Assembly (NCBI GenBank): GCA_016858145.1
Contig: JAEHOE010000112.1
Location: 124,001-188,000 of the forward strand
Length of the DNA: 64,000 bases
Direction of reading: 5' to 3'
DNA from: Edaphochlamys debaryana
Lineage: Eukaryota; Chlorophyta; Chlorophyceae; Chlamydomonadales
Shown: one piece after another, positions 16,664 through 64,000 of the stretch
How the letters are laid out: the number at the start of each line of letters is the position of its first letter
Position numbering within the stretch: position 1 is the first letter of the stretch
Program-made: the position numbers and the translations under genes
Notes under the pieces: model-generated
Databases searched by the model: none
The model's input: the letters and a program-made list of their open reading frames with translations, nothing else
Told to the model about the DNA's origin: nothing

Positions 16664-16820
16664 ATGCCGCGGCTGGCCCCGCTCATGGCTCCGGCAGGCG
16701 GAGGCTGCAGGCGGGCTCCAGCGGCGCGGGCGAGGCAGCGACGGCGGTGGCGGGACCTGGCGGGGCTGCTGGGGTTGCTGCTCTGCCTGCTCGCGGGGCA
16801 GCCAGTAACGGCGCAGCCCC
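16664..16820 (+). other. Signal peptide of the giant protein
   Basis: The N-terminus has an arginine-rich n-region ([10 protein letters not shown]) followed by the hydrophobic run [14 protein letters not shown] and a likely cleavage site after VTA, near residue 51. A second in-frame ATG at 16685-16687 has G at +4 and would also keep the signal. This places everything up to the first membrane helix, about 6,900 residues later, outside the cell or in the secretory lumen. Confidence 0.8.
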
Positions 16821-19800
16821 TCAGCCCGGACCCGCCATCACCATTCCCGCCGGAGCCACCCAGCCCGCCGCTGCCTCCCAGCCCGGAGCCTCCCTCACCC
16901 TTGCCTCCCAGCCCGTTGCCGCCATCCCCTCCCTTACCTCCGAGCCCGGAGCCTCCCTCACCCTTGCCTCCCAGCCCGTTGCCACCATCCCCTCCTTTAC
17001 CTCCGAGCCCGGAGCCTCCCTCACCCTTGCCTCCCAGCCCGGAGCCACCATCCCCTCCTTTACCTCCGAGCCCAGAGCCTCCCTCACCCCTGCCTCCCAG
17101 CCCGGAGCCACCGTCCCCTCCTTTACCTCCGAGCCCGGAGCCTCCCTCACCCCTGCCTCCCAGCCCGGAGCCACCATCCCCTCCTTTACCTCCGAGCCCG
17201 GAGCCTCCCTCACCCCTGCCTCCCAGCCCGGAGCCACCGTCCCCTCCTTTACCTCCGAGCCCGGAGCCTCCCTCACCCCTGCCTCCCAGCCCGGAGCCAC
17301 CGTCCCCTCCTTTACCTCCGAGCCCGGAGCCTCCCTCACCCCTGCCTCCGAGCCCATCGCCCCCCTCCCCGCCCCTGCCTCCGAGCCCGGAGCCTCCCTC
17401 ACCCCTGCCTCCCAGCCCGTTGCCACCATCCCCTCCTTTACCTCCGAGCCCGGAGCCTCCCTCACCCCTGCCTCCCAGCCCGTCTCCGCCGCTGCCTCCC
17501 AGCCCGGAGCCGCCCAGCCCCTCCCCGCCGGGGCCCCCGCCCAGCCCGCTGCCCCCCAGCCCGCGGCCGCCCTCCCCGCCGCCGCCGGCCTACTCCGCCG
17601 ACGGAATCTACGGCTCCGCGCCCTGGTTCACCACCATCGCGGGTCGCCGCTGGGCGCTGTTCGCCGACCCACTGCCCTTTGCGGAGGCGGAGGCGTCGTG
17701 CCGGAGCATGGGCGCGCACCTGGCGGACCCTGCTGACGTGGCCGAGTACTCAACCGTCGTGGACGCCTACGCCCCCACCTTCAGCTACTTGGCGCAGTCG
17801 GCCGTGTGGCTGGGCGTGAGCGACGAGGACACCGAGGGCTGGTACTTCTTCACCGCGGGCCGGGGCACGACCGCGCTGGCGGAGGTGGAGCAGGGCGCGT
17901 GGGAGGGCGTGTGGGCGCCGGCGCACTGGTCCCAGGAGGGTGGCGCCAAGGACTGTGTGGCGGCGCAGCTGGGGGTCAACACAGCCACGGCCTCGCCCTT
18001 TGCGGGCGCCTGGCTGGATTCGGACTGCGCTACGGCGCTGCCGTACTGGTGCGTGGGCGCCGCAGGCTTCGCTGCGCCGCCTCCCTCGCCGCCCAGCACC
18101 GGCACGCCGCCCCCGCCGCCCCTGGCGCCGCCGCCCTTTGGCGACACGTACCCGGCGTACCCGGCAGGCAAGCAGAGGCGACAGCGGGGATCGTAGCAGC
18201 AGCAGCGGCTTCATGGGAAGGGGTTGCAGGGACAAGGGGGCTTTGGGGTAGTACAGGGTTGGCAGGGCCGGGGTGGAACGCAGTTGAGGGCAACTGGGGC
18301 GGGCCCAGCAGTGCGCCTTGGGCAGGATGTTGGCCCCGAGAAAGCCTACTTGCCACCTTGCATGCCTGCGCCAACCCCACCCCTCCTCTGACCCCACGCA
18401 CCCACCGTGTCTCCCCCGCGCAGTGTCCGTGGCCGTGGGATACGCCAACTTCAGCCTGCTCGGTGGCGCGGGCTCGGCGGTCAGCTGGCTGGCGGCGCAG
18501 CAGGCCTGCGCGGCCCTGGGCGGCCACCTGGCCTCATTCGCCGACGCAGCCGAGCTGGCAGCCGTGCGTACGGCGCTGTTGACGGCGCTGGACGCCGCAG
18601 GCTTCACGGCCAGCACGCTGCCGTACACGTACTCGTACCGGCCGATCTGGGTCGGGCTGCGCCTGGTGGACACGAGCTACGGGTCGGACTGGCGCTGGTC
18701 GGACCGCTCGCCGCTGGCATTCTCGGGCTTTGGCAGCGCCGAGGCGGGCGCGTCGGCGGCGCTGTCGGGCTACCGCTGCGCCGGCTCGCACCTGGACCGC
18801 GCGGGTCTGTGGTCGCAGCAGGACTGCGCCGCGCTGCGCCAGCCCCTGTGCCGCCTGCTCAACGTGGCCGCCGCGCCGCCGCCGCCGCCGCCCGCGTCGC
18901 CGCTGACGGCGCACCAGCAGCGGCTGCGCTTCACCACCGCCGCGGGCCTCACCTACACCCTGCTCATGCAGCCGCGCTCCTTCGCGGCGGCGCGGCGCGC
19001 CTGCGCGGCCCTGGACGCGGGTGGCGACCTGGCGGCGCCCGCGGACGCGCAGGAGTACGTGAACGTCATGGGGGCAGTGCAGGCCTACCTGGCCAGCAAC
19101 GGGGCCGTCGCGGGCGCGTCGGCCGTCGCGCCCCCGCCCGACGCCTCGCCGCCGCCCTGGCCGCCGCTGCCGGGCGCCGGTGAGCCGCCCATGGCCGCAC
19201 CGCCCCAGGCCTCGCAGGCGGGCGAGGCGGCGTTCTGGCTGGGCCTGCGAGCGCTCAGCGGCTCCTACGCCACGGTCGCGGGGGCCGCGCCCAGCTACAC
19301 GGCCTGGAGAGCGGGGGCGTACACGGGCAAGTGGCCGGTGCTGGCCTGCGTGGCGGCGGACCCCACCGACGGGTACGCCTACACCCCCACGGGCTGCGGC
19401 GTGGCGCTGCCAGCGCTCTGCCGCGCGCCCGAGCCCAGCGCAGCCCTCTCGCCGCCGCCCTCGCCTTCTCCTCCTCCGCCGCCCACCCCCGGCGCCGCGC
19501 CCGCCAGCCTCCACCGCGGGCTGTACGAGTACATCTTGTACGATGCGGATCTGCCGTACGGACAGGCCGGCGAGTTCTGCGCCAACAACGGCGGCTTCCT
19601 GGCGTCCTTCCGCTCCGCCGCCGAGTGGGGTGCTGTGTGGTCGTACATGGAGACCAACGCGGCGGCGCTGGCGGGAGACCAGGAGAGCGTGTGGATCGGG
19701 CTGGATCAGGTAGGGGTGGGGTCGGCCGGGGAGGAGGGCGGAGGGAGGGGGAGGAGGGGTATCTGGGGCGATGGGGGCTGGCATCGTGCGGTGCCCCTGC

Positions 19801-22800
19801 TGGGATGGTTGAACTCTGGGAGGTAGGACTGGCAGGTATGTAGGCGAGTCGGCGGCAGGCTGTGGGGGCTCGACCTCGGGCCCTGCCCCTGCGCCAACCT
19901 TTGACCCTCCCTCCCTCCCTTGACCCCATGCTTCCCTGCCGCAGCTGAGCTCCGGCGAGGCCTCCTGGGCCTGGGCGGACGGCGGCCCCCTGGTGTGGGA
20001 GTACTGGGGCCTGCCCTGCACGGACTCGGAGGGGAGCGACTGCGCAACAGGTGCGTCCGGGGGAGGGGATGGAGCAGGCGGCAGCGGAGCAGGGTCCAGG
20101 GACATGTGAGGGCCGGCAGTGTGGAGAATGGCTGGTTTGGACGCCGCTACGGGCAGGCCTCCGCCTGAGGGTTGTTTGAGGCTAAAGCGTGTGTTGCGGA
20201 GGGCAGAGAAGGCGAGGCCCGCTGGAACGAATGCCCATCTACCAACGTCATCCGTCCCTCCCCCCCTCCCCGGTGCGCAGCCGACCAGCTGTGGGGCGGG
20301 CGCTGGGCGGTGGACGACTGCCTGGAGCCCCGGCCCTTCCTGTGCAAGTTCCTGCGCGGCATCAGCGCCGCGGACGCGCCGCCGCCCGCAGCCTCCCCGC
20401 CGCCCTCGCCGCCCACCAGCGCTCGTGAGCAGGCCTGCCGCCGGGGCGGTCAGGGGGCTGCTGACTGCGCCCTGCTCCTCGCTGCTGTTTGAACCCATCT
20501 GCCCGCTCTTGTACTCCTCCGCCTCGCTGCACCGCGCACCCTTCCTCCCATACCACCCGCCTCTAAACATGCCCCTCCCCCGCACTGCTCCCCTCGCCCC
20601 CCTCCCCCCACCTCCTGCTGCCAGTGCCCTACCTGCGCAACGTGTCCGTGGACGCGTCCGGCTACTTCCTGCTCTCCGACACCGCCCTGCCCTACGACGA
20701 CGCCGAGGCTGCCTGCACGCGCGCGCGGGGCGTCATGGCGCGGTTCGACGGCGCGGCGCAGTTTGAGGCCGTCATGGCGGCGCTGGAGGCGGACGTGGGG
20801 CCGGTGGGTGGGGGTAGGGTGTGTGTGGAGGAGGAGGGGGGTGCGGGAGGCGCGGTCGCAGCTCGGAAGCTGGGCCTGGGAAGATGCAGTGCACGGGATG
20901 CCCGTTTCTGTCCTCACCTTCCCCAATCCCCACCACCCCTTCCCCCCTCCCGCAGCTGTACGACCCGGCCGTGTGGGTGGGCCTCTACCGCTCCTACGCC
21001 AACGCCTCGCTCTTCGTGTGGGCCGACGACTCCTCCGCCCCCGCCTTCTCCGCCTTCAACCCCGCCCCGGCCGACGCGGGCGGCGACTGCGGCGCTTCGG
21101 GGGTCCCCGAGCAGCTCTCCTACCAGCCCGACAACTGGGCGGGGCGGGAGGACTGCGTGGCCGCCGAGCTCATCGGCAACGGAGTGGCCGGCACCTACTG
21201 CCCCCGATGGAACGACCGCGCCTGCACCGACCGCCTTCGCTTCCTGTGCCGCTCGGACGCGCTGCTGACTCAGCACCCGGGCGTGCCGCTGGAGCCGCCC
21301 TCGCCGCCCAGCAACCCGCCGCCCACGCCGCCGCTGCCGCCGCTGCGGCCGGCGGGGCCGGGCATCCCGCCCGCGCCGCCCTTCCCCGGGCTGCCGTACA
21401 TGCCGGACGCGCCGCCCAGCCGCCCGCCCTCGCCGCCGATGGTGCCGGAGGGGCCGGACATGTTCTCTGCGCCCTACGCGCCGCCGACATCGCCCGGGCG
21501 GCCGCCGCCGCCGCCGCCCCCGCCCCCGCCGCCGCCAGGCCTGCCGCCGCCTGTGCCGCCGCCGGGGCCGCCGCCGCACCTGCCGCCGCCGCCGCCCAGC
21601 CCGGAGCCGCCCATGTCCCCTTACATGGAGTATGCGCCATCTGTGCCCTACCAGCCCACGCCGCCCGACTTGCCGCCGCCGCCAGACAATCTGGACCTCC
21701 AGGGACCCCCGCCTCCACCGCCGCCTCCACCGCCGCCGCCGGGCCCGCTCCCGCCCTCGGCACCTCCTCCTCTCCCTCCTCCGCCCCCTCCCCCTCCGCC
21801 ACCACCTCCTCCTGCCTTCCCTCCCGTGTCGCCTGCTCCGGCGCTGCCCGCTTCGCCCATGGATGAGAGTCCTCCATCGCCGCCCCCTGAGGCCCCGGAT
21901 GCGCCGCCGCCGCCACCCCCGCCTCCGCCTCCGCCCCCGGGCCCGCTCCCGCCCTCAGCTCCTCCTCCTCTCCCTCCTCCACCCCCTCCCCCGCCACCAC
22001 CACCTCCTCCCGGCATCCCTCCTGTGTCGCCTGCGCCAGCCCAGCCCACAATTCCCATGGACGAGAGTCCTCCATCGCCGCCCCCTGAGGCCCCGGATGC
22101 GCCGCCGCCGCCACCCCCCGCCTCCGCCTCCGCCCCCGGGCCCGCTCCCGCCCTCGGCTCCTCCTCCTCTCCCTCCTCCACCCCCCTCCCCCTCCGCCAC
22201 CACCTCCGCCCGGCACCCCTCCTGTGTCGCCCATCGACCACGCTGCACCCACTGCACCGCAATCACCCCCACCCTCGGGGCCTCCTCCTCAGGCCCCGGA
22301 TGCGCCTCCTCCTCCACCCCCGCCGCCGCCGCCGCCCCCGGGCCCGCTCCCGCCCTCGGCTCCTCCCCCCGCCCCTCCTCCACCCCCTCCCCCTCCGCCG
22401 CCCCCTCCTCCCGGCATCCCTCCCGCAACACCTGCTCCGGCTGTACCCGCATCGCCCATGGATGAGAGTCCTCCCTCGCCGCCTCCTGCCCAACCCGACC
22501 TCCCTCCGCCTCCTCCTCCTCCGCCCCCTCCTCCGCCGCCGGGCCCCCCACCGACCTTGCCAGTTGAGGTCTCCGCCCCGCCTCCTCCGCCACCCCCCGC
22601 CTCCGCCGCCCCCTCCTCCCGCCTTCCCTCCTGTGTCGCCTGCTCCGGCTCAGCCCGCATCGCCCATGGATGAGAGTCCTCCCTCGCCGCCGCCGGACCA
22701 GCCTGGGATGCCCGCCTTGCCACCACCGCCTCCCCCGCCGCCCCCGGAGACACCACCCACGGCCCCCGTTCTGGTCGCGTCTCCTCCTCCGCCACCGCCC

Positions 22801-25800
22801 CCACCGCCGCCTCCGCCACCGCCTGCTTTCCCCAGCATGTCCCCCGTGCCGGCTCAGCCGCTAGCACCTGGGACCACCCTTCCGCCTTCTCCACCCCCTC
22901 AGCTGCCGGATGCCCCACCGCCGCCACCCCCGCCCCCTCCTCCTCCTCCTGGCCCTCCGCCGATGGCGCCTCCTCCGGACAGCCCTCCTCCTCCACCTCC
23001 TCCTCCTCCGCCGCCCCCTCCGCATGCGCCGCCCATCGACCACGCTGCACCCACTGCACCGCAATCACCCCCACCCTCGGGGCCTCCTCCTCAGGCCCCG
23101 GATGCGCCTCCTCCTCCACCCCCGCCGCCGCCGCCGCCCCCGGGCCCGCTCCCGCCCTCGGCTCCTCCCCCCCGCCCCTCCTCCACCCCCTCCCCCTCCG
23201 CCGCCCCCCTCCTCCCGGCATCCCTCCCGCAACACCTGCTCCGGCTGTACCCGCATCGCCCATGGATGAGAGTCCTCCCTCGCCGCCTCCTGCCCAACCC
23301 GACCTCCCTCCGCCTCCTCCTCCGCCCCCTCCTCCGCCGCCGGGCCCCCCACCGACCTTGCCAGTTGAGGTCTCCGCCCCGCCTCCTCCGCCACCCCCGC
23401 CTCCGCCGCCCCCCTCCTCCCGCCTTCCCTCCTGTGTCGCCTGCTCCGGCTCAGCCCGCATCGCCCATGGATGAGAGTCCTCCCTCGCCGCCGCCGGACC
23501 AGCCTGGGATGCCCGCCTTGCCACCACCGCCTCCCCCGCCGCCCCCGGAGACACCACCCACGGCCCCCGTTCTGGTCGCGTCTCCTCCTCCGCCACCGCC
23601 CCCACCGCCGCCTCCGCCACCGCCTGCTTTCCCCAGCATGTCCCCCGTGCCGGCTCAGCCGCTAGCACCTGGGACCACCCTTCCGCCTTCTCCACCCCCT
23701 CAGCTGCCGGATGCCCCACCGCCGCCACCCCCGCCCCCTCCTCCTCCTCCTGGCCCTCCGCCGATGGCGCCTCCTCCGGACAGCCCTCCTCCTCCACCTC
23801 CTCCTCCTCCGCCGCCCCCTCCGCATGCGCCGCCCATCGACCACGCTGCACCCACTGCACCGCAATCACCCCCACCCTCGGGGCCTCCTCCTCAGGCCCC
23901 GGATGCGCCTCCTCCTCCACCCCCGCCGCCGCCGCCGCCCCCGGGCCCGCTCCCGCCCTCGGCTCCTCCCCCCGCCCCTCCTCCACCCCCTCCCCCTCCG
24001 CCGCCCCCTCCTCCCGGCATCCCTCCCGCAACACCTGCTCCGGCTGTACCCGCATCGCCCATGGATGAGAGTCCTCCCTCGCCGCCTCCTGCCCAACCCG
24101 ACCTCCCTCCGCCTCCTCCTCCGCCCCCTCCTCCGCCGCCGGGCCCCCCACCGACCTTGCCAGTTGAGGTCTCCGCCCCGCCTCCTCCGCCACCCCCGCC
24201 TCCGCCGCCCCCTCCTCCCGCCTTCCCTCCTGTGTCGCCTGCTCCGGCTCAGCCCGCATCGCCCATGGATGAGAGTCCTCCCTCGCCGCCGCCGGACCAG
24301 CCTGGGATGCCCGCCTTGCCACCACCGCCTCCCCCGCCGCCCCCGGAGACACCACCCACGGCCCCCGTTCTGGTCGCGTCTCCTCCTCCGCCACCGCCCC
24401 CACCGCCGCCTCCGCCACCGCCTGCTTTCCCCAGCATGTCCCCTGTGCCGGCTCAGCCGCTAGCGCCTGGGACCACCCTTCCGCCTTCTCCACCCCCTCA
24501 GCTGCCGGATGCCCCACCGCCGCCACCCCCGCCCCCTCCTCCTCCTCCTGGCCCTCCGCCGATGGCGCCTCCTCCGGACAGCCCTCCTCCTCCACCTCCT
24601 CCTCCTCCGCCGCCCCCTCCGCATGCGCCGCCCATCGACCACGCTGCACCCACTGCACCGCAATCACCCCCACCCTCGGGGCCTCCTCCTCAGGCCCCGG
24701 ATGCGCCTCCTCCTCCACCCCCGCCGCCGCCGCCGCCCCCGGGCCCGCTCCCGCCCTCGGCTCCTCCCCCCCCGCCCCTCCTCCACCCCCCTCCCCCTCC
24801 GCCGCCACCTCCTCCCGGCATCCCTCCCGCAACACCTGCTCCAGCTGTACCCGCATCGCCCATGGACGAGAGTCCACCCTCGCCGCCTCCTGCCCAACCC
24901 GACCTCCCTCCGCCTCCGCCTCCGCCCCCTCCTCCGCCGCCAGTCCCCCGACCGACCTTGCCGGTTGAGGTCTCCGCCCCGCCTCCTCCGCCACCTCCAC
25001 CTCCGCCGCCCCCTCCTCCGGCTTTCCCTCCAGTGTCCCCCGTACCAGCGCAGCCTGCAGCTCCAGGGGACCTGAGCCCTCCCTCGCCGCCGCCGGGGCA
25101 ACCCGACATGCCCCCGCCGCCACCCCCCCCGCCGCCACCCCCGCCGGGTCCACCTCCTTCCTCTCCACCGCCCGGTGCCCCTCCCCCGCCCCCACCTCCC
25201 CCGCCGCCCCCTCCCCCGGGAATGCCGCCTACGGGCGACGCCCGTACTCCGGACGCGCCTCAGCTCCCTCCACCCACCGCTCCCCCGCCTGCCTTCCCTG
25301 ACGCTCCGCCTCCCCCACCCCCGCCGCCCCCGCCGCCGCCCGACCCGCCGTCGCCGCAGCGCCATCGGCCGCCGCACCCAGCCAAGGGTCGCCCCACGAA
25401 AGGGGACGAGCCGGCTGCTCCGCCGCCGCCGCCCCCGCCCCCTCCTCCGCCGCCGCCGCCGGACGCCCCTCCTGTGGATCGCACAGCTCCAACAGCACCG
25501 CAGTCTCCTCCACCCTTGGGGCCGCCCCCTCAAGCCCCGGATGCGCCTCCGCCTCCGCCTCCGCCCCCTCCGCCGCCACCGGGCCCCCAACCGACCTCGC
25601 CGGTTGAGCTCTCTGCCCCGCCTCCTCCGCCCCCTCCCCCTCCGCCGCCCCCTCCTCCCGCCTTCCCTCCCGTGTCGCCTGCTCCGGCTGTACCCGCATC
25701 GCCCATGGATGAGAGTCCTCCCTCGCCGCCGCCTGCTCAACCCGACCTCCCTCCGCCTCCGCCGCCGCCCCCGCCGCCGCCTCCGGGCCCCCCACCAGCT

Positions 25801-40800: not shown

Positions 40801-43800
40801 GGCTGCGGGCGCCGCCGGCCCCGCCGCCCTGTCCCTGGGCATGGGCGCACGTGTGTGGCAGCTGCACGTGGGGCCCGCGCTGCTGCGGCAGGCCGCGGGG
40901 TCGCAGCCGCAGCACGCAGCGCAGCACGCGCAGCACGTGCGGGAGCGGCACGTGGACCGCTTCCAGCGCGCCCGGGAGCGCCTGGCGGCCTCCGCGCGCC
41001 TGCCCGAGACCGAGACCGACCCCACCGGGTACGGGGCCGGGTACGGGGCCGGGGCCGAGGCGCAGGCCGACGGTGGCGTGGGCGTGCTTGGGCGCGTGTT
41101 CTCGCGTGACGGCGGCCCGGCCGCCGACCTGCCCTTCAGCGGCCAGCTGCGAGAGGCGGCGCGCGCGGAGCGGCTGCGGCAGCAGCAGGCGGCGGCGCAG
41201 CGGCCGGCCCTGGTGCACGGCTCTTCCTCTTCCGCCACCTCCTCCGCCGCCTCCTCCTCTCCCAAGCGCCGCTCCGGCACCGATCCCGCTCGCGCCACGG
41301 CGCCTGGCGCCGAGGCTGAGGCTCAGGCTGAGCCGGACTACGGCGACTATGGGGAGGGCGAGGTCGAGGCTGCGGAGGACTACAGCGACGGCACGGGCGA
41401 GGCTGGGGGTGAGGGGGCCTCGGCCCCCGCGCCCAGCCGCCGCTCCGTGGTCCGGCGGCTGCTGGGGGGGCAGCTGGTGCCCGCCTTGGCGGCCATGAGC
41501 CGGCGCCTGGCGGGGCTGGAGGCGGAGCTGGCGGGGCTGCGACTGGACGAGCAGGCGGAGGGCGACCACGTCGCCCTCCCCTCCTCCTCCGTGTACGGCA
41601 CCCTGGATCTGGACGAGCCGTCGTACTCGGCGTACGGCCTGTCGGCCACCGCCACCGCCCCCTTCGGCGCCCGCGCGCCGCTGTGGCGGCGCCGCCTGCA
41701 CCAGTCTGGATCCAACTCCACCTCTGGATCTGGAACCAACTCCAGCTCCTGCTCGCCGCCTATCAACTCCCCCAACGTGGTGACCCAGTGCGTGTCGTCC
41801 GGCTTCGACTCGTTCGACGCGGCCCTGGCGGTGCTGGTGTCGCTCATTGCGGATGTGGAGCGGATCGGGGAGGTGGGTGGAAGGGGAAGCGGTTGAGAGG
41901 GCGCGTGTGGCTTCAGCATGGGGGGCTACATGCGAGAGGGGGCAGGGTCGGAGGGGCTTTGGGGGCTGAGGGTCTACTCCATGCCCCTCCCACTACCATC
42001 CCTCCAACCCCCTCACCTGCCTCTCCCCCCCCCCCCCAGGACCTGGTGACCAACGTCACCCGCGCCACCTCGACCATCTCGGCCCTGGACGAGCGCTTCA
42101 CGGCCACCGACACGCGCTACGAGGCCGTGTACGTGGCCTACAAGGTGGGGGGCAGGATGCGAGGGGGTTGGGGGTTGGGAGGAGGGGGGCTGGGAGCGGG
42201 GCAGGGCCTGCGGCGGGGTCAAGACCCCTTGTCATGGGAGGGTGCCTCCTCTTTTTATTCTCCAACAACTTCTCCCCCGAGAGTCCCGACCCACACACCG
42301 CCACACACCGCCACACACCCTCCCACCCCACCCTTCCCCAGGACATGGCCTCGCTCTACATGTCGGAGCTGGAGAACCGCACCTCCTCCGTCCTCACGGC
42401 CCTGGCAGCCGCCGCCGCCGCATCCGGCGACCAGGCCGCGCTGCTCTCCGCCGTGGCCGCCCTGCTGGCCGGCTCCGTCGCGGGCGCCTACGAGGCCGCC
42501 GACCGCCTGGGCGTCACCACCTCCCTGGTGGTGGACGGCCTGGGGCTGTCGGACGCCGAGTGGTACTTCGACGACTACCGGGCCTGCCTGGTGGCACGGG
42601 GGGGCGCGGGGGGAAGGTACAACTTCACCATCAACGCCGCCGCCGCGGCGGCCGTGCGCGCGGACGTGGCGGCCGGCCGCCTGGCCGCGCCGCCGCCGCC
42701 GCCGCCCCAGGCCGGGGGGTACAGCCTCATGGCGGCAACCCAGCTGGCGGGCATGGGCCGGGCGCTGCTGCAGCGCCTGGGCTGGGGCAGCGGCGAGGGT
42801 GGTGGTGCAGACGAGGAGGACGCGGGTGCATCGGACGACTATGACTACATGTCGGGCCTGGGCCGGCGCTGGGAGCGGCGGAGGCGGCTGCAGCAGAGCG
42901 GCATGCCGCCCCCGCCCCCGGGATCTGCCTTCGAATCCGCATCTGGATCCGGATCCCGGACCGTGCTTCCGGCGGGCGCCGTGGCGCGGATGCAGTACGG
43001 CGGCTACGAGGTGGAGGCGGCGGCTGGCAAGCCCCCGCCCGGCCTCACGGTGCGCTACGACCAGCACGGCCTGCCCGAGCGCACGCGCGTCGCGGGCGCG
43101 CGCCGCTCCTCCAACCGCGTCGTGGCGGGGCTGTTTCTGCACCAGACGCGGCGGCCCGTGGCTGCGGCCGTGGTCAAGCCCGGCGCCTCCGCCTGCGACA
43201 GCCGCTTCGGGGCCCTGCGCGCCGGGTGCGCCAAGCCCTCGGCGCGCTTCGCCTCCACCCCCGGCCTGGTGGACCTGGGCGGCATCGGGCGCGACCCCGT
43301 CTTCGACCGCGCCTCGCCGCTGTACAGCGCTGACGTGGCGGGCCGCCCCTGGGCGCACTACAACTTCACCGAGGGCAACGCCGAGATCTCGCCCGCCAGC
43401 GGCATGCCGTACGGCTTCACGCACTACCCCGTGCCCCACATGGACGACGGCTACCCCGTGTTCTTCGACACGCGGTGCGTGGGGGAGGGGGAGAGGAGGG
43501 GAGGGAGGGAGGGAGGGAGAAGGAGGGGCTGGGGGAGCATGATGAGTTGTATTGGGAAGGGAGTGTAAGGGCAGGGGCTGTGGGGCGCTGTAGCGTGGGG
43601 TCTGCCCTGCTGGATAGAAGCGGGGCCTTTTCCACACTCGCCCCTCCTCCCCTCCCTCCACCTCCCTCTTCAACCCCCGCTCCCTCTCTCCTCCACCCCC
43701 CAGCCTGGGCCTGAACCGCACCCAGAAGCTGCTGGCCTACCTGCGCGACGGCTCCTTCCTGTCGCCCATCTTCACGCACGACCTGGCCGCGCGGCTGCTG

Positions 43801-46800
43801 GTCTACAACCCCGACGCGCACGTGTTCGGGCTGTGGCGCGCCAGCTTCAGCTGGGCCGAGGACGGCCTCATCCGGCTCAAGCACTGGTTCACGGTGGGGG
43901 CAGGGGCAGGCCGGAGGCTGGAGCTGGGCCCGTGGGGCGGGTGGTCCGCAGGTGGCGCCAGGACTTGGTTTGGGCTGCGGGCCGGGGCTGGGCAAAGCGA
44001 GAGAGGCACCCAGCCGTCTCTCCTCCCTCACCCGACCCCAGGCCGTCCCCGCCATCGACTACGGCGACTCCATCGACCGCGGCGAGGTGGCCATGTACGC
44101 CCCCGACTGGGTCATGGTGGCCTTCGTGCTGGCCTACGGCACCGCGGCGCTGGTGGACGTGGGCCTGGCGCTGCAGCACCAGCGCCAGCTGCGGAGGGCG
44201 GAGGACGGGGAGGGGCTGGGGCAGATGACGCCGGGTGCGCGGGGGGAGAGGGGGAGGGGAGGGGAGGGGAAGCAGGAGGGGGGGAAGTAGGAGGGGAAAG
44301 GGGGAGGGTGGAGGAGGGAGGGCTGGGAGGTAGGAACCGTCAGAGGTGGGCTGGGGTGCAATCAGGGGCACTGCCGACCCCCTCCGAACCCCACCCCGCA
44401 TCCCACCTCCCGCCCCGCAGAGGAGCTGTACAAGCGCAAGCGGCGCGTCAAGCGGCGCTTCGCCTGGCGTGTGACGCCCTTCCTGGTGTTCTGGGAGGCG
44501 ACCATCTTCGCCCTGCAGCTGTCAGCACTGGCCGTGCTCTACTACTACGTCTTCAGCCTCTCGCCCTCGGCGCCAACCGCCACCACGTACGACGTGTACG
44601 ACGCGGACGCCTTTGCGCCTGCGCGGTACTTCATGATCCAGAAGGATGAGCGCGCGTGGAACCCCTTCCTGGCCAACGTGCTGCAGGTGCGTGCGGTGTG
44701 CTGGCCGTGTGTTCGGAGCAATTCAAGCAAACCTCAAGCTGCCGTTTGTGGGGCTGGAGGGGCTGGAGTGGGGCCCTGTACAATATAGTATGGCCTCTTC
44801 CATCCTCTCCTCAACTGTCTCTCTGCCCTCCCTCCCACGCCCCTCTCCCCCCCAGACGCTTGTCACGCGGCCCGGCGGCAAGCCCAACCCCGACAGCCTG
44901 TCCCTGGCTGACGTGGCGGCGGGCATGGCCCCGCCCGTCATGCCGGCGGCGGGCGGCGAATACCGCTGGCTGCTGCCCAACGACCTGTCGGGCCTGGACT
45001 CGCTGTCGTACATGTACGAGTACGCCGCCAACATGGATTACTACTGGACGCTGTACTTTGTACTGCAATCCGTCGTACTGGCCATGCTCATGATCCGGCT
45101 CATCCACTACCTGGCCTTTCAGCCGCACCTGGCAGTGATTGGCGGCGCCATCGCGCGCGCGCTGCCCATGCTGTGCTACTGGGCCGTGGTCGCGATCTGC
45201 GTGCTGTGCCCGCTGGCCGTGCTGGTGGTCACCGTGTACGGCACGCGCGTGGAGGGCGTGGACAGCTTTGGCGGCGCGGTGCGGGCCATCCTGGATTACG
45301 TTATTGTCATCAATCGCAACGAGGGCGACCGGGCCACGCTCACGGAGGTGGGGACTGGGGGGCACTGGCGAGGACTGGGGCAAAGCTACACGCAGAGATG
45401 GGGGCGGGTTGGGGCCTCTGGGACTGCGGCATGCTGCAGACAGGGTGGTGCTGGGCCTCGTGCTCAGCAGACAACCCGCTCCTTCACCTTGCCCGATCCG
45501 CACCAACTGACCCCACTCACAACCACACCCTCCCCAGCTCCTGTTCCGCGAGGGCTACCTCCTCAACCCGCTCGAGTCCGTGCTGGGCGGCTTCATGGTC
45601 TTCGGCCTGGCCTTCCTCCTGGCCGGCGCCATTATGGCCTTTGTGCTCGCCATCCTGCTGCGCCACCACCACCGCCTGCGCGCCGAGCGCCGCGCCGCGC
45701 CCGGCCTGGCGTCCGACCTGCGCAACCTGGGCCGCTGGGCCTGGCAGCGCCTGCACCGCAAGGCGCCCTCCAACAAGGCCATCGACGCCACCATCGACTG
45801 GGCCACGCGCCCCGAGGTGCGCTACTCGTGGGCCTACGGCGCGCTCTACAGCGCCGTCGTGCGCGGCGTTGCGGCGGTGGCCGGCGGCCGCTCGCTCGCG
45901 CGGCGCCACCCCACGCAGCACCAGGCCACCACCGAGCGCGCCGTGCTGCTGCCCGGCGGCTGGCAGCGCGGCTACGGCTCGCGCGACGAGCCCGACCCCG
46001 CCGTGTGCCCGCGCTACAACCAGCGCCAGCTGCTGCGCATCTTCACCGACCTGCTCGCCGCCGACAAGGCCATGCGCAAGGAGCTGTGGCTGTGGCTCAA
46101 CACGGCGCCTACTGACAAGCGGCCGCAGCGGCTCAAGGCGCTGTACGCCGCCAAGACCGCGGTGGCCACCACCGACTCGACCGCACCCGGCATGGCCGAC
46201 TCGCTCGCGCGGCTGCTGCTGGAGCGGTTCGGGCAGCGCGTGCCACGGCGGCAGGCGCGCAGCTACCAGGAGCTGCTGCACGCCATGCGCCGCCGCCTGG
46301 GCGCGGGCGGGGGCGGGGACGGCAGCGCGGATGGCACTGGCGGCGAGGGCGGTGAGGGCGCTGGGGGCCCAGGGGGCGACTCTGACGACGAGGTGCTGCC
46401 CACGGGCGTGCGCGTCGGCGCGCTGCGTCACGGCGCCTCTTACAGCGCCGCCATGACGGTGCACGAGCTGCAGCTGCAAAGCGCGGTGCAGGCGGCCATG
46501 AAGAACATCCACCAGGTGGGGTGGGTGGGTGCTGGGTGGGGCAGGAGGGGGGCAGGGGAGGGTGGGTGGAGTGAGCAACGGCCTGCCAATGAAGCGGATC
46601 AGGTGGAGAAGAGAGCACCTGGGGCTGGGGCTGACATGAAAAACGTGGCACGGCTGGGGACAGGGCTGGGGGCTAGGCAGGTTTGGAGGACATTCACTCT
46701 TGCTTGCTTACCGGGTAAGTGGTTGGGATTTGAGGTCAAGGGACGATGGCCTCCTGAAAATAGCCATCGGGCAGAGGCTGGGGCGCTACAGGGTAGCGGC

Positions 46801-49800
46801 GCTTGCAAGAAATCTTGGCACCAAAGCAGGAGCGCTTGCAGACAGCTGGGGCCCAGGAGGCTGCAAACCTCCTGCCTTTCCCTTCCCCCCCTCTCACCCT
46901 CTCCTCCTTGCACTCTTCCTAACCTTCGCGACTCTATCTGCTCTTTACTCTCGCACTCCTGCCCCCTCTCACCTTAACCCCTAACCCCCGCCCCCACAGA
47001 TCCGCGAAAACATGGGCCGCGAGCTGGGCGACGACCCGCAGCTCATGGCCACCCTATTCGTGGCGCAGTTCGCGGGCCAGGTGCCGGAGCCGCAGGCGCG
47101 CCCGCAGGCCTCGCGCCCCTCGCTCTACCGCCAGCGCGTGCAGCAGGGCGGCACGGGCGCCGCGCCCTCGGCGGCGCCCTCTCGTGCGCACTCGATGCGC
47201 CCCGGCGCGCCCGGCCCCGTGGCGGCGCTGCAGGACACCAACACGCCCGAGGGCATGCTCACGCGAGCGCTGCAGGCCATGCTGGGCGGCCAGCAGGGCG
47301 GCCAGCAGCTGCCGGGCTCCGGCGCCGCCACGCCCGGTGGCGCGGGTGCTGGTGCAGGGGCGGGCGACGGCGTGCAGGTGTCGCCTGGGTCCATCACGGA
47401 CGGCGCACCGCGCGCCCGGCCCCGGCCCAAGGGCCCCGGCACCAAGAGCCGCGCGCGCTTCGCCCCCGACCTGCAGCTGCCGGCGGACGAGGACGAGGGG
47501 CCGGCGGCGGCGGCGGGGTCAGCCCCCGCCAGCCCAGCGGGAGGGCTGCCCAGCGGCCGCCGCGGCTCCATGACGGCCGTGCACCCCGCCGGCAGCGGCG
47601 GCAGCTTCGCCAGCCCTGGCGCCGGCCCGGGCGCAGCAGGCAGCCGCAGCCTGCGCGGCGTGCTGTTTGGCGGCCCCTCCAGCCGCCGCGGCTCGCGCGT
47701 GGCGGCGGTGGACTCGGGACCGCGCTCCGTGTCCTTCTCCGCGGCCGTGGCCGGCGGCGGCGAAGGCGCGGGCGGCGCGCTGCACGTGCTGCCGCCCGGC
47801 GCCCGCTCCGCGCGCTCCATGCTGGCGCCGCAGCCCTCGGCCGCCTCCGTCGTGAGCCCCCCGGGGCCGCTCTCGCGCACCGAGACCGGCGCCAGCGGGG
47901 CCCTGGCGGCGCCCGAGCCCGCCACCATCCGCCGCCCCCAGATCCACAAGATGAGGTCCATGTCCATGGCCGCACGCGCCCGCTCCTTCGTGAGCGGCGC
48001 GCCGGGCGAGATCGCGCCCGCGTCGCCCAGCGGGGCCGCTGCGGCCGCCGCCGCCATGGGCTCCTCCATGGGCTCCATGACATCGCCCGGCTCCTTTGGG
48101 CTGGGCTCCGCCAGCCGCGGCTTCAGCGGTGCCGCCACGCCCCGCGGCGACATGATCGCGGCGCAGATCGCCTCGCTGCCGCCCGACGGCGCCGTCATCT
48201 TCGCCACGTCAGCGGCCGTCGTACAGCGGCTCACGTCGCACGTGCTGATGCTGCTGCGTGAGCTGCGTGGCGTGCAGGCCGACGCTGACGCCATGCTGCG
48301 CAGCACGCTGGTCATGGTGCAGCGCCTGTCGGGCCCTGTCGACTCGCGGCCGTTCCGGGGACGCGCGGCGCGCATGGTCCCGGGCGTGCTGTCCAGCCCC
48401 GCCTCCAGCCCGCCCATCTCGCCCCAGACCGAGAAGCCTCCCGGCTGGCAGGACACCGCCGCCGCCACCGTTGCCGCCGCCAACGCGGCCGTGGCGGCAG
48501 CCATGGCGGCGGGCGCCACCGGCCGCGCGAGGGCGGCGGCGCCCGACGATGATGACAACATGCTACCGCTGCCGCCCGTGGGCAGCCTGCGGGGGGCTGA
48601 CTCGTACACCAACAGCCCGCGCGCCCTGGCGGCGCTGGCGGCCAGGCAGGGCGCCTTCGCGCCCGGCCCCACCTCCTTCGCCCCGCCCGCATCCGCCTCC
48701 CACTCCCCCGCCCGCGCCTCGTCCGGCAGCGCCGAGCCGCGCCAGGCCCCCCCGGTGCCCGTGTCGGCCATGGCGCCGCTGCCGCCGGCGGTGCTGCCGG
48801 CGGGCATGGAGCCCAAGCCAGCCACGCCGCCGCTGGCCGCCACCCCCGCCGCCGCTGCCGGGCCGGAGCCCGAGGAGCCCCCGCCGCTGGAGGCGGAGGA
48901 GACCGTGGTGCGGCTGGGAGACGCAGCCGCGCAGGCCGCAGGTGAGCCGGGGGGCCCTGACTGGGGCTGGCTCAGCTTCCCAGCTCCAGCTACCCTAGCT
49001 CCTGCAGGCTTTTGCAGGCTCTGCATTTGCCACCAGTCCCAGTTGCCGGCCTTAGTATGCTCTTTCTCTCGCTTTACGTTTGCCCCTCACTCCCTCTCAC
49101 CCTCGCTGTGACCTGCAATCTCCCTTCCTCGTTGACGCTCCCTACCCCTTCCCTGCCCCAACCCGCAGCCGCCCTCGCCGCCGAGGAGGCCGAGTACGCG
49201 GAGCGCGAGGCGCTGGCCGCGGAGGAGGGCCTGGAGCCGCCCCCGGGCTCCGGCGCACAGGAGGGCCGGCTGCGGCCGCTGGGCTCCCGCGCAGCCACGC
49301 CCGACCTGGGGGCCCAGGGGGAGCTGGCCGCCCGCCTGGGCAGCGCCAGCGGGCTGCAGCGGCCCGGCAGCGTCACGGAGACGCGGCGGCCGGGGAGCAC
49401 GGGCAGCGGGGCCGGGGGCATGGAGGTGCTGCAGGTGGGGCCCTTTGCGTGGGGGATGGGTGAGGCGGGCTTGGGAGTGTGTGGCTAGAAGGGAACAACA
49501 GCTGTACCGTATGCTTTCGTACTCACCTCTTACCCGCCAGCCTCCACCCTCATAAGCCTTCACCCTCTCTCCGTCTCTCCCTCCGCAGGGCGCCGGAGCG
49601 TACCGCGCATCCACGCCCACCCGCGCCTCCGGCTCCTCCCGCGCCGCCAGCCCCCTGCAGCCCACCGAGGCCATGCTGCGCCTCTCGCCCGAGCCCTCGG
49701 CCGCATCCGCCGCGGGCTCCGCCGCCGGCAGCCGGGCCAGCAGCCGCCTGGGCTCGCGGCCCGTCAGCGCCGCCCCAGCGCGGGAGCTGCCCGAGGAGGA

Positions 49801-52330
49801 CAGCGCGCAGCGCAACCTGCCGGAGCCGTCGGGCCCACGCAGGCCCACGGGAGACGGCCGGGCCCCGCCTGGGCCCGAGGCCGAGGGCGGGGACATCCCA
49901 GAAGAGCCCACGGCGGCTGCGGCGGCCCGCGCCGTGCCGCAGAGGCCCCGGGCTGCGGCGGGAGAGGACGTGCCGCGTCGCTTCTCGGCCCAGGGCGGGG
50001 AGGTGTTGGAGGAGGAGGCTGCCGCCGCCGCCATGCCGCCGCCGCTGCGCCGCCAGCCCACCCCCGAGCAGCTTTCGCGTGCTCCGTCCATCCCCGCTGG
50101 GGAGGTCGTGGAGGAGGAGGCTGCCGCCGCCGCGGCCGCAGTGGCAGCGGCTGCGGCAGCCGCACCGCCCCGCCGCTCCCGCGTGTCGGGGCCGGGCGGG
50201 GAGGTGCCCGAGGAGCCGGTGCTGGTGGCGGTGCGGTCGCGCAAGAGCCTGGCCGCCGCCGCCGCCCCGCAGCCGCCGCCGCCGGCGCGCATCAGCGACG
50301 CTGGCGAGATCGAGGAGGAGCCCGCGGCGGCCGCCGCCGCGCCTCCCCCCGCCCCCGTGGTCCCCGCCGAGGAGCCCTTTGTCCTGGGCGCTCGCCGCCC
50401 CGTGTCCTTCAAGGCGCCGCGCCCGGCCGAGCAGGAGCGGGGGCCCGCCCCCGCCTCCCGCACCGCCACGCCGCCCACTGCCCAGGAGCAGCGGGGCGAC
50501 GAGGAGGCGGAGGGGGACCTGGGCCGGCCCTCGCGCCAGGCCAGCCGCCTGGCCTTCTCGGAGGCCTCGCAGGGTGCGGGCGGGGAGGAGGAGGACGACG
50601 AGCCCACGGAGCCGCCGGGCTGGTGGGGCGGCGAGGAGGCCGAGGCCGAGGCCTCGGAGCCCCTGGGCGCCCCCTCGGGCCTGCTCCGCGCCAAGAGCAC
50701 GCACGAGCAGCGCATGGCGGCCCGCGCGCTCACGGCCGTGCCCCTGCCGCCGCTGCCGCTGGGCGTGCCGGAGCCCATCGGCCGCCGCATGCGCTCCACC
50801 ACCACCACCGCCCCCGGCTCCCCACGCTCCACCGCCGGCCAGGTGCCGCCGTCGGGCCCCGGCCCCTCGCAGGCGCAGCAGTACCCGCCGCGCACGCCCA
50901 CGCCCGAGCCGGACGTGGAGGCTCGGCCAGAGGGGCCGCAGCTGGGCCTGGCCGGCCGCGCGCTCTCTCGCCGCTTCGCCCAGGCCCCTGCCGCACCCAT
51001 CGTGCCGCCGACGCCCGACGCGCCGCCCGCTGCGCCGCTCGTGGCCCCCCCGCCTCCGCCCTCGGCCCTGGCCCACCCCGCCCCCCCCGACAGCCCCGCC
51101 CGGCAGCGGCGGCACGTGCAGGTGCAGCTGCCGCCCGAGATGGAGCGCCGCCAGGCGCAGCTCGCGCGGCAGCAGGAGGCCCTGGCCGCAGCCGTGGCCG
51201 CAGTGGAGGCGCGCCGCGCAGAGAGCCGCGCGGGCAGCCGGGCCGCCAGCCGGGCCGTCAGCCGAGCCGCCAGCCGGGCGACCAGCCGCGCCGCCAGCCG
51301 CGCCGGCTCCTTCACGGCCTCCACGGCCCCCGGCGCCGCGGGCCTGGGCTTCCCCGCCTCGGCCTTTGGTCGCTCCCAGGCGGGCGGCGAGGACAGCGAG
51401 GACTCCAACCCCGCCTCCCGCGCCACCTCCTTCGCCGTGCCGCCGCCGCTGGCGCGCCACGGTGCGCCATCGATCGGCGGCGGCCTGGGCGGCCCCCAGC
51501 GCTCCGGCGGCTACACGCTGCGCGGCGGCCTGAGCCAGGTGCTGGGCCGCCGGGCGCTCATGGCGCAGTCGGCCGCCGCCTCCGAGGCCGACACTTCGGA
51601 CGACGAGGGCGGCATCGAGCCGGGCAGCAACGCCGCCGCGCTGGCCGCAGCCGCGCTGGGGCGGCGGCGCGAGGCCGAGGCGGCGCAGCGTGCGGCGGCT
51701 GAGGAGCTGCTGGGCGTGATGCGCTCGGGGCTCAGCGGCACGGGCGAGCGCCTGGCCGTCAGCCGCCGCACCGGGTCCAACACCGCGGGCCCTGGCGCCG
51801 CTGCCCCGCCCTCGCCCATGCCCGGCCTGGCGCAGCGGGAGCTCTCCACCATCCCCGCCACCGGCTCCTTCACCGCCGGCCGCTCCACCCTGGGCCTGCC
51901 CGCGCGCCCCGCCGCAACGGCCTTCGCCTCCCGCGAGTGGGGCCGCGGCACCGTCACGGCCGCTCCCAGCGGCGAGGGCGGCAGCGGCAGCGGCGAGGCT
52001 CGGCCCGGGGCGGTGGCCAGCGCCGCCGTGGGCCCCATCGTGCCGCCGCCGGCGCTGTTCGCGCCGTCGGCCAGCATCCGCGGCCAGCCGGCGCCCGTGC
52101 GCCGGCGCTGGGGCGGCCTGGGCGGCGACCCCTCGCCTCCCTCCGGCCCGCCCGGCGAGGAGCTGCAGCCCGTGTTTGCGCCGCAGCCGGGCGCGGGCCC
52201 ACCCCGCACTCCCGAGATGCCGTTCGGGGGCGCGGGGGGTCTGGACCTGGAGGACGTGGACCTGCCCGCCTCGGGCACCATGCGCCGGGAGGCGCCCGTG
52301 CCGCGGCGCCGGCAGCTGGGCGACGAGTAG
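16664..52330 (+). CDS. Giant lectin / polyproline / Ig-like / polycystin fusion protein (about 9,246 aa), candidate mastigoneme axial protein
   Basis: Forty-two exons run from the ATG at 16664 to the TAG at 52328-52330; coordinates are given in the region entries below. Exon phases agree at every junction. Two proline-rich exons (7 and 9) need a one-base correction in a C run, and several further run-length differences inside exon 6 cancel out. The exon lengths sum to 27,741, a multiple of three. Order: signal peptide, SP-rich HRGP segment, five C-type lectin-like domains, polyproline shaft (about residues 1180-4864), Ig-like domains (to about 5950), Gly/Ser/Asp-rich linker, polycystin domain and five membrane helices (about 6600-7312), cytosolic tail. 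I see no stop, polyadenylation signal or new start between the parts that would split the gene. By family knowledge it should sit in the plasma or ciliary membrane with the rod outside. The closest idea I have is the polyproline axial protein of Chlamydomonas mastigonemes, unverified. Alternative: two or more neighbouring genes, which cDNA would settle. Confidence 0.75.
16870..17580 (+). repeat. 63-bp tandem repeat coding for an SP-rich HRGP segment
   Basis: About nine copies of a 63-bp unit encode a 21-residue motif of the form [21 protein letters not shown]. Unit starts are seen at 16941, 17004, 17067, 17130, 17193 and so on. Variants swap Glu for Leu or Ser. Serine-proline blocks like this are typical of algal cell-wall HRGPs and pherophorins, where prolines are hydroxylated and O-glycosylated. 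This spacing differs from the later shaft, which uses uninterrupted runs of 11-14 prolines. The segment lies between the signal peptide and the first lectin domain, within exon 1. Confidence 0.85.
17590..21262 (+). other. Five C-type lectin-like domains (exons 1-6)
   Basis: Exons: 16664-18167, 18424-19709, 19945-20050, 20281-20424, 20625-20803, and the start of exon 6 at 20956. CTLD1 (17590-18075) shows [12 protein letters not shown] and [18 protein letters not shown]2 (18430-18870) and CTLD3 (18920-19430) sit in exon 2, with a WVGL or WLGL core and terminal CR. CTLD4 (19520-20370) spans exons 2-4. CTLD5 (20630-21258) has QPDNW followed by EDC and then WNDRAC, the residues expected in a calcium-dependent, galactose-type sugar site. 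The first four lack a clear QPD/EPN triplet and may be structural or bind other ligands. Intron 1 has a GC donor (18168) with consensus CAG/GCAAGC. Confidence 0.88.
21280..32849 (+). other. Polyproline shaft, exons 6-9
   Basis: Exon 6 (20956-28437, almost 7.5 kb) and exons 7 (28608-30783), 8 (30981-31775) and 9 (31931-32849) encode about 3,700 residues. The repeated pattern is a run of 11-14 prolines, then a linker of 8-25 residues rich in Ala, Ser, Asp, Met and Pro, such as PDAPPPP or [10 protein letters not shown]. Uninterrupted proline of this kind forms a stiff left-handed polyproline II helix when hydroxylated and glycosylated. Linkers are variations on a small set, which indicates growth by repeat duplication. 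Exons 7 and 8 end in G with a GGG/GTGAGC donor and exon 9 in AACAG/GTGCGC. C-run length differences interrupt the frame at several places (see findings). Confidence 0.8.
22229..24629 (+). repeat. Higher-order tandem repeat, unit 798 bp (266 codons), three copies
   Basis: Anchors starting GCCCATCGACCACGC occur at 22229, 23031, 23832 and 24630, giving spacings of 802, 801 and 798. The third copy is the clean 798-bp unit. The second differs by three extra single Cs, and the first by one extra C plus a three-base addition. Apart from these the copies are nearly identical over hundreds of bases, so the duplication is recent or kept uniform by gene conversion. Parts of the same unit reappear, more diverged, at 25800-26130 and 27170-27500. 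Confidence 0.9.
33061..40124 (+). other. Ig-like (DUF5011/HYR type) and cysteine-rich domains, exons 10-31
   Basis: Exons: 33061-33094, 33232-33630, 33833-33967, 34186-34350, 34499-34626, 34851-35118, 35282-35386, 35584-35769, 35966-36103, 36316-36402, 36542-36640, 36764-36967, 37184-37270, 37427-37543, 37700-37740, 37938-38022, 38258-38409, 38624-38707, 38869-39019, 39189-39418, 39583-39757, 39945-40124. At least four modules carry a motif like [10 protein letters not shown] (also [29 protein letters not shown]) and end in YxITYDVxDxxGN-type strands, as in DUF5011/HYR Ig-like domains. Many cysteines suggest disulphides. Intron 13 has a GC donor at 34351. This block joins the rod to the membrane-proximal part. 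Confidence 0.72.
34760..34850. repeat. Intronic (CCCCTA)n/(CCCCCA)n tract
   Basis: The last 90 bases of intron 14 of the giant gene are a 6-bp tandem repeat that changes from CCCCTA to CCCCCA just before the acceptor CCAG at 34847-34850. The tract forms the pyrimidine-rich part of the splice site. Confidence 0.85.
40280..42144 (+). other. Low-complexity Gly/Ser/Asp/Ala linker, exons 32-33
   Basis: Exon 32 (40280-41872) and exon 33 (42040-42144) follow the Ig-like block. Residues about 6010-6060 are an acidic serine-glycine stretch ([17 protein letters not shown]), coded by repeated GGATCC-like triplet patterns. An alanine-rich, mildly helical region and a second SG-rich patch near 41700 come next. 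Serine-glycine next to acidic residues is a typical O-glycan attachment setting, but no family was recognised. The end of exon 32 and exon 33 form an amphipathic coiled-coil-like segment. Confidence 0.55.
42342..46515 (+). other. Polycystin domain and membrane helices, exons 34-39
   Basis: Exons: 42342-43474, 43704-43893, 44042-44234, 44421-44686, 44856-45347, 45538-46515. Residues about 6770-6955 fit the polycystin (TOP) domain of the PKD2/PKD1 family: [11 protein letters not shown] start, FFDTRLGLNRTQ, then [20 protein letters not shown], equivalent to the FIDFSVYNANINLFC strand in PKD2. Five hydrophobic helices follow: about 6975-6998, 7036-7064, 7168-7194, 7208-7236 and 7284-7312, matching S2-S6. 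No S1 helix is seen before the polycystin domain, which suits a protein whose N-terminus is already outside. The loop before S6 has no clear LGD-type selectivity filter, so conduction is uncertain. Confidence 0.8.
47000..52330 (+). other. Long cytosolic low-complexity tail, exons 40-42
   Basis: Exons 47000-48941, 49169-49434 and 49589-52330 encode about 1,650 residues after S6. The tail is rich in Ala, Pro, Ser, Gly and Arg and shows no globular domain. Two internal patterns stand out. Five or six modules of the form GGEVxEEE followed by polyalanine and an arginine/proline patch lie at about 49880-50330. An octad-like SRAASRAG repeat lies at 51225-51305. Both look suited to repeated binding of a partner or to phosphorylation. 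The stop is TAG at 52328-52330. Confidence 0.75.
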
Positions 52331-53407: not shown

Positions 53408-54523
53408 GGCCCAGTGGTGTTCTCTCCTCGCCTCCCTCACCTGGGGGCCGGGGCCTGGTGTCGCCAGGCGTGGCACCTGCCGGTACCGTAACGGGTTCGA
53501 AGCCGGGGGGTGCTTTGACCTTTGAGCCTATGTAGGCGGCGCTAGCTGCAGGCCTTGCGGAATATGAGCTTGCAGCTAGCCTACATGCAGGCGTACGTCC
53601 AGGCAGGTCCAGGCCTGAGTATGTATCCAGGCCTATGTCCAGGCCTATGAAGGCGTCCAGGCCTGTGTTGTTGTTGGCGGCTGGACAGCTGGCTAAAAGC
53701 CTTACGTTCTTGCCGCCATGCCCTTCACTCTCCGCATGCGCCCGGCCCGTTCGGACGGTTGCGCCGCTCCATCGGAGTGCTCAGAGCATGCAGCCGAGCC
53801 CCAGGCCCCCCCAGCCCTGAAGCCCTTTCCGGGGACGTACCGAGATACCGAGTACCGGTATCGTACATCCGCCCAAGGCTTGCACCGCTTGCTTTCGGGT
53901 CTCTTTCGAGAGAATCTCTCCCAGATGGAAGTAACGGATTGAGAGGGGTGCTCGGGGGAGGGTCATAAGGGTGCGGCTGAGGTACACATGGGCGGGGCGA
54001 GCAGGGGGGGGGGGTTGACGAGAACGTCGTGGCCAGAAGCCGCATCGTATAGGTGAAGCAGCCGCGCACGAGACGGGCAGGTCGACACCCTGAGCTGCGA
54101 GGACCCCCGTGAGGGTGGAAATGAAAATGCTAAAGCGCAGCCTCCAGTGCACTGGCTGCGGTGGGGACACATGGTGAGGGGGGCCAGGGGGGGGGGACCG
54201 GGGGTGAGGACGCGGGGCGGCGACACCCCTTCTCAAGCCCTTTCTGGCCCTCCCAGGCCGTCGTGCCCCAGCACACCTGGCCCCTCGCCAGTGCCAATGA
54301 GAAGCTACACCTATTGTTGCGAAGTGTCCTTGGCTGGCCGCACGTCTCACTCTTGCGCTCACGTCCAACTGGTCCAACTGTCGCGATGAGACGCGGAGGA
54401 AGAGGGAGTGTGACTCGGTTGCGGGCTGCTCCGCCCCTGCTTATACACGGTCAGGTGGCCTACTGCCCCAGACGCGTCGCTGCAGCTAGCGCACTTGGCG
54501 GGTGGTCGCACATCACAGCAAGA
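53408..54523. other. Intergenic region upstream of the GDSL esterase gene
   Basis: Bases 53595-53665 hold four or five short direct repeats around GTCCAGGCCT, spaced about 12-16 bases apart. The rest holds poly-G tracts (54003-54015, 54185-54200) and no supported gene. The promoter of the esterase gene should lie in the right half. Confidence 0.4.
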
Positions 54524-63717: not shown

Positions 63718-63759
<42 letters not shown>

Positions 63760-64000
63760 CGGGGGGGAGGATAGGGGTTTGCAGAGGGGGGCAGGGGCGA
63801 GGTAAAAGGTGAACCCCTTCTCTTCTGGGGACCTACCTGGAGTCGAAGGTGGGGGGCCTGCGGGGAGGGGCGGAGGGGGCAGCTCGGAGACGGACTGCGG
63901 AGAAGGCACGCAGGACTGCGGGGCTTAGGCCTGCCTGGAGTAGAGTGCTTAACGGCGCAGGTTTGGGCGAGGCCGGCCAGCGATCGCCTTGACGCGCCAG
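61291..64000 (+). CDS. Secreted selenium-binding protein / methanethiol oxidase family (SBP56), 3' end outside window
   Basis: Exons with matching phases: 61291-61352, 61449-61617, 61742-61804, 61941-61979, 62128-62235, 62432-62552, 62739-62806, 62974-63042, 63165-63253, 63418-63494, 63640-63719, and a tentative exon from 63961 to the edge. The product starts with a signal peptide (MTSLTATVCLALALVCIHSA). Family landmarks in order: EPHHCRVSVDKRWLGCGGLL, ADEFLTTPEGGF, MGSETGGSPGRVVLYDKDL, NPHGIAIDWKRDTAVTVDYM and TTVRLWDTRTW, matching the beta-propeller of animal and plant SBP1. Members of this family oxidise methanethiol to formaldehyde, sulphide and peroxide, and bind copper through conserved His and Cys; the EPHHC motif is present. 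Most members are cytosolic, so a secreted form is unusual. Confidence 0.78.
63720..63758. repeat. (GT)n microsatellite at an intron start
   Basis: About 19 GT dinucleotides follow immediately after exon 11 of the SBP-family gene, so the splice donor itself is the first GT of the repeat. Any of several donors in the run could be chosen. Confidence 0.9.
63821..63850 (+). pseudogene. Partial duplicate of the end of SBP exon 11
   Basis: Inside the following intron, 63821-63850 repeats the last 30 bases of exon 11 (63691-63719) plus the donor GT with about five differences. It lacks the rest of the exon. It is probably a decayed local duplication, although it keeps a usable donor. Confidence 0.6.

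Follow-up and report, generated by a model that had tools for sequence, protein, structure and literature searches.

Does one gene join a lectin head, a polyproline rod, immunoglobulin (Ig)-like domains and a polycystin membrane anchor in a single chain? This question is raised by a stretch of 64,000 nucleotides from the green alga Edaphochlamys debaryana (positions 124,001 to 188,000 of contig JAEHOE010000112.1; G+C 72%), referred to here as the window, for which a first-pass annotation made from the letters alone had proposed such a gene. The window lies in the contig labelled C112, and genome scans covered the 141.9-Mb assembly of 502 contigs. By using a home-made splice-aware gene finder, the output of which was then corrected by hand, we found a single gene of 42 exons at 16664-52330 on the forward strand, which starts with an ATG at 16664, encodes approximately 9,240 residues and has its sole stop codon at the end (52328-52330). 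The extent and unity of the gene proposed earlier were reproduced by this model. We consider the gene to be, with a probability of about 0.94, the MST3 orthologue of E. debaryana, MST3 being the protein that forms the axis of the mastigoneme, or ciliary hair, and anchors it.

In Chlamydomonas reinhardtii, MST3 (Cre06.g309951) was described as a protein of 8,572 residues with a signal peptide, a polyproline N-terminus of 429 residues and five C-type lectin domains, together with 42 two-block polyproline repeats of 19-nm pitch, Ig-like domains, a PKD-like domain lacking S1 and a C-terminus of 1,600 residues (PMC11015965). The protein runs as a single strand along the axis of the mastigoneme, enclosed by the MST1 coat, and is anchored together with PKD2 and SIP, and four mst3 mutants of C. 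reinhardtii were without mastigonemes (PMC11015965). When the window gene was compared with this published axial protein by description, it matched part by part and in their order, and both hosts have PKD2 and SIP. The first-pass annotation had linked the locus to mastigonemes and had seen rod and anchor united in one chain, which agrees with the part order of MST3. It had named a polyproline axial protein and a PKD2 anchor separately; the two are already joined in C. reinhardtii MST3. Its view that a polycystin bearing such a rod was unknown did not survive, because C. reinhardtii MST3 had been published with one (PMC11015965). The architecture is already known from C. reinhardtii MST3, and an orthologue was to be expected from the published work; what is new here are the details of the rod, namely the number of its units and the copying of an 801-bp block. 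The full MST3 architecture is not confined to C. reinhardtii.

The splice sites of the model are regular, with AG at 41/41 acceptors and 39 GT and 2 GC donors, and the introns are in phase 0 (29/41), phase 1 (5/41) or phase 2 (7/41). As a control for the gene finder, its model of the SIP locus on C29 (366 residues) was 100% identical to the published E. debaryana protein HYH03_007135. Automatic gene models either divided the window into too many genes or lost lectin domain 1, and were dropped in favor of the curated model.

The secreted N-terminus begins with the start codon and a signal peptide (16664..16816; hydrophobic segment at aa 32-50), followed by a proline-rich distal tip (16817..17587) of 257 residues (aa 52-308, 62% Pro). 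The tip is composed of 160 Pro, 50 Ser, 26 Leu and 17 Glu, its longest non-Pro run is 2, and it overlaps a 63-bp tandem repeat of 9.7 copies (16874-17482); a PDB search with the tip gave no match. C-type lectin domain 1 and a linker take up the end of exon 1 (17597..18167), which was set to 18167, in front of a phase 1 GC-AG intron (18168..18423), with a gain of one residue. Domains 2, 3 and 4 and the first part of 5 lie in exons 2-5 with their introns (18424..20803), and the remainder of domain 5 is found at 20956..21285, so that exons 2-6 hold lectins 2-5 and the last exon of lectin 5 continues in frame into the rod. The five C-type lectin-like domains noted in the first pass were recovered by Pfam as five Lectin_C (PF00059) stretches in three pieces (1+2+2). 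A genome search with lectin 4, in which 12 candidates were scored, gave single or paired matches outside the window on C119 (the best, E 6.5e-6), C128, C69, C158 and C90.

The polyproline rod (21286..32849, with introns at 28438-28607, 30784-30980 and 31776-31930) comprises 3,675 residues, as against the shaft of about 3,700 claimed earlier, and consists of 62.9% Pro, with 105 runs of at least nine prolines. Its units are laid out as P12, about 11 residues, P13-14 and about 30 residues. Fifty such two-block units were detected, and the pitch implies about 53; it was 66.2 ± 2.4 residues in 45/49 intervals; of the other four, three span 130-145 residues, roughly two units apiece, and one spans 91. 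The period of 66 residues gave an autocorrelation of 0.70, a value that none of 1,000 shuffled arrangements of these blocks and gaps reached (maximum 0.30). Runs of at least ten prolines numbered 101 on the forward strand of the window and 0 in a control region, i.e., the three coding-strand frames of a 50-kb stretch of C49 that surrounds a paralogous polycystin. The looser layout P>=11-Y<20-P>=11 was present in 45 copies, 44 of which then have at least one XXP. Duplications of about 800 bp, or four units, extend over 21706..25143 with 92% identity over 2.7 kb, and the duplicated four-unit blocks measure 801 bp.

Two exons (33061-33094 and 33232-33630) link the rod to the ectodomain. The Ig-like ectodomain is divided into many short exons (33833..40124) and contains three stretches of PF16403 (Bact_surface_Ig-like), for which we take DUF5011, the type named in the first pass, to be the older name. 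With the Ig region, the PDB yielded just two matches (E 0.028 and 0.18), both of them unrelated proteins. A (CCCCCA)n repeat of 12.7 copies (34773-34848) occupies the 3' end of the intron that precedes exon 34851. The juxtamembrane ectodomain (40280..43112) precedes the polycystin domain, which comprises a partial TOP (polycystin) region (43113..44110), recognized because it resembles the other polycystins of the host, and S2-S6 with the pore region but without S1 (44111..45657), assigned by PF08016, hydropathy and the tree described below. The PKD_channel (PF08016) match scored 23.9 bits against a cut-off of 22.4, and hydropathy revealed five hydrophobic segments (overlaps merged) with none at the place of S1, which bears out the S2-S6 of the first pass. 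S2-S6 without S1 is a feature of MST3, and in the published model it is SIP that provides the S1. In place of the S1-S6 and cytoplasmic N-terminus that distinguish PKD2, the window gene has five channel helices and an N-terminal signal peptide. Three weak matches to PKD2L1 (E 0.25-0.33) were obtained from the PDB with the S4-S5 frame. The predicted cytoplasmic tail (45658..52330) comprises about 1,935 residues.

A relative of the window gene was found in Gonium pectorale. GPECTOR_4g559 (4,052 residues), labelled pesticidal crystal protein by one source, is colinear with our model from just past the rod to the last residues. BLAST with low-complexity masking gave five ordered matches of 46-57% identity, unmasked BLAST at E<=1e-10 gave two matches of 49%, and global alignment gave 54% identity over 3,734 aligned positions; 26/33 of the splice junctions examined had no more than 2 gap columns within a window of 20 columns. 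A tree of the TOP/channel region was built from 14 rows, i.e., the window gene, the Gonium protein, ten host polycystin-like loci (C162 from a partial model) and two host PKD2-like proteins. The window gene and the Gonium protein were sisters at 100/100, the two PKD2-like proteins were joined at 100/100, and 5/11 inner branches reached that value. The ten other host loci match the TOP/channel region, some weakly exon by exon, and lie on C49, C26, C170, C29, C42, C52, C5 (two loci, which are close copies), C82 and C162. Profile searches of the host genome gave no candidate with PF20519 and three loci only with PF08016 at the default threshold, PKD2 surfacing only under a looser one. In the pore alignment, from which C82 was excluded because it lacks the anchor motif and in which C162, C170 and C5a are incomplete, LG[DN], which we take to be the selectivity filter, was present in 1/13 rows, that of PKD2 on C35; the PKD2-like protein on C6 has LGV.

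The partners of MST3 are also encoded by the host. PKD2 with S1 (aa 66-84) was located at C35:379748-390768 and a second PKD2-like gene with S1 at C6:1544904-1559376, whereas the available parts of the C. reinhardtii papers mention one PKD2. A search with the S1-TOP region of PKD2 (six candidates scored) returned one locus in addition to these two genes, namely the SIP homologue on C29, with 32 residues at 59% identity. This homologue (C29:8509-13765) is a single-pass protein of 366 residues with one helix, and its database relatives are green-algal wherever the species is named (55 listed, 7,996 candidates scored). SIP of C. reinhardtii is likewise a single-pass protein, of 361 residues, and is related to the N-terminus of PKD2 (PMC10846610). 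SIP was proposed to supply the S1 missing from MST3, with a ratio of PKD2 to MST3:SIP of 3:1 (PMC11015965, PMC10846610).

Several observations weigh against our reading of the locus as one intact MST3 gene. C. reinhardtii MST3 was compared by its published description rather than by its sequence, and the sequence-based orthology covers the part after the rod. The strict C. reinhardtii motif, P13Yn<20P11(XXP)3, is present in the rod in 1 copy (5 with P12), PF20519 (Polycystin_dom) was unmatched in the TOP region at E<=1, and an extra hydrophobic stretch is located at aa 6539-6557, which we judged to be neither a membrane helix nor S1. The linking junctions 32849^33061 and 33094^33232 are unsupported by GPECTOR_4g559, whose annotation begins there, and 5 further junctions of the 33 lie in gapped Gonium alignment. 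Holding the frame in the rod needs 11 skips of 1-2 bases, or 12 under other penalties. The unsupported junctions and the start of the Gonium annotation just past the rod would fit two neighboring genes, one for a secreted lectin-polyproline glycoprotein (16664 to ~32900) and another for a separate Ig-polycystin (from ~33200), and C. reinhardtii MST3 annotations, too, differ at the N-terminus (PMC11015965). We regard this arrangement as very improbable, because the linking introns are canonical and phase-keeping, and the first Met past the rod end (aa 4840) lies 53 residues downstream. No hydrophobic segment that could act as a signal was found between the N-terminal signal and aa 6539, and hence, a separate polycystin gene would be without an obvious secretory start. 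In C. reinhardtii, moreover, the long form is backed by insertion mutants and by a peptide detected by mass spectrometry (PMC11015965). The Gonium annotation, which unlike the window gene is without tip, lectins and rod, neither confirms nor denies the linkage of head and rod, and the contig N50 of the Gonium assembly, 0.02 Mb (PMC8226300), makes a break at the polyproline rod plausible there.

One MST3 gene must also be distinguished from another lineage-specific, SIP-completed member of the polycystin family that has lectins and a rod by chance. Such members would not be lacking: ten other host loci match the channel region, and in C. reinhardtii MST3 is accompanied by seven proteins of this kind, polyproline-rich regions being present in six (PMC11015965). 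We nevertheless give this explanation little chance, because the five lectins, the distal tip, the two-block units of near-constant pitch, the absence of S1 and the long tail all fit MST3, and because the channel domain is 28-36% identical to those of the ten loci versus 54% to that of Gonium. If the 11 or 12 breaks in the rod were real, the locus would be a pseudogene, which we find hardly credible: the 38/42 exons outside the rod are without break or internal stop, the post-rod part is still 54% identical to Gonium, and the breaks sit at or beside C-runs in a region of 76-82% G+C. C-runs are frequent in the rod, so that this adjacency alone proves little. The breaks are probably C-run length errors of the assembly, a view with which the reported Illumina polishing of the E. 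debaryana assembly (PMC8226300) sits awkwardly. The consistent exon phases claimed in the first pass hold outside the rod, where no skips are needed, but not inside it. The public annotation of the gene in E. debaryana is probably in pieces, because both protein searches with channel exons returned no host protein: the S6-and-tail exon (709 candidates, relatives of 4,094-13,025 residues admitted) found nothing, and the S4-S5 exon (686 candidates, relatives of 2,475-7,875 residues admitted) found only the Gonium protein. Errors in C-runs can fragment genes of this type, both in assemblies and in annotations.

If the gene acts as MST3 does in C. reinhardtii, its secreted N-terminus would project from the cilium, with the lectins and the thin proline tip lying distally, and the rod would form a glycosylated polyhydroxyproline helix. 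By orthology, one unit of 66 residues may provide one binding pitch for the MST1 coat, in which case the number of units would set the length of the hair. The Ig-like ectodomain would lead to the five-helix polycystin-like subunit, to which SIP may supply S1, and the completed subunit would join PKD2 subunits in the ciliary membrane, with the long tail presumably inside the cilium. Taking 19 nm per unit for about 53 units, and 0.31 nm per residue for the 257 residues of the tip, we tentatively propose, at slightly less than even odds, that the rod acts as a genetic ruler, setting the length of the hair and evolving through the copying of four-unit (~800-bp) blocks, and that the hairs would measure ~1.0 µm, compared with ~0.8 µm in C. 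reinhardtii, with a tip of ~80 nm versus 133 nm. Species can be compared in unit number, pitch and tip length, which offers a natural test of the published idea relating repeat number to mastigoneme length.

To the left of the MST3 gene and divergent from it lies an adaptin-like gene (11422-15692, reverse strand; PF01602, E 4e-71), which by its start we assume to be probably AP-4 epsilon. Judged by eye, two near-copies of one coding segment are present beyond it (627-6448, reverse strand), and a segment at ~7.6-9.1 kb resembles segments at C112:116-124k. On the right, genes modelled at 53564-63943 on the forward strand and onward to ~C112:201k have repeated segments and, again by eye, are apparently tandem copies of one family, the first copy of which had no Pfam match at E 0.1. 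As C. reinhardtii MST2 and MST3 have neighboring gene numbers, the flanks were checked for MST1/MST2 synteny; none was seen, the left neighbor being adaptin-like and the first right-hand gene Pfam-less, which is a weak negative because no MST1 sequence was used.

In the mastigoneme literature (Mstax, MST3, polyproline and PKD2), judged partly by title, the E. debaryana gene seems to be undescribed, and the available portions of the mastigoneme literature naming debaryana concern FMG1, with no mention of MST3 found there. The mastigoneme protein of Huang and colleagues is reportedly named Mstax. In PMC11169674, Huang et al. (2024, Cell 187:1733) are the source given for a mastigoneme protein structurally homologous to PKD1. 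Further polycystin-like loci number ten in E. debaryana, versus seven partial polycystins besides MST3 in C. reinhardtii (PMC11015965). Compared with C. reinhardtii MST3, the E. debaryana protein is longer in total (~9,240 vs 8,572 residues), in its tail (~1,935 vs 1,600) and in the number of its units (~53 units of 66 residues vs 42 repeats), whereas its tip is shorter (257 vs 429 residues), with a longest non-Pro run of 2 vs at most 1. The strict motif is rare in E. debaryana, although it occurs in 42 copies in C. reinhardtii MST3. Human PKD1 has, to our knowledge, no polyproline rod. It resembles the window gene in that a polycystin, the partner of PKD2, bears a large ectodomain containing both Ig-like and C-type lectin domains, and differs from it in having eleven membrane helices and an ectodomain that is turned outward differently (PMC11015965, PMC10846610).

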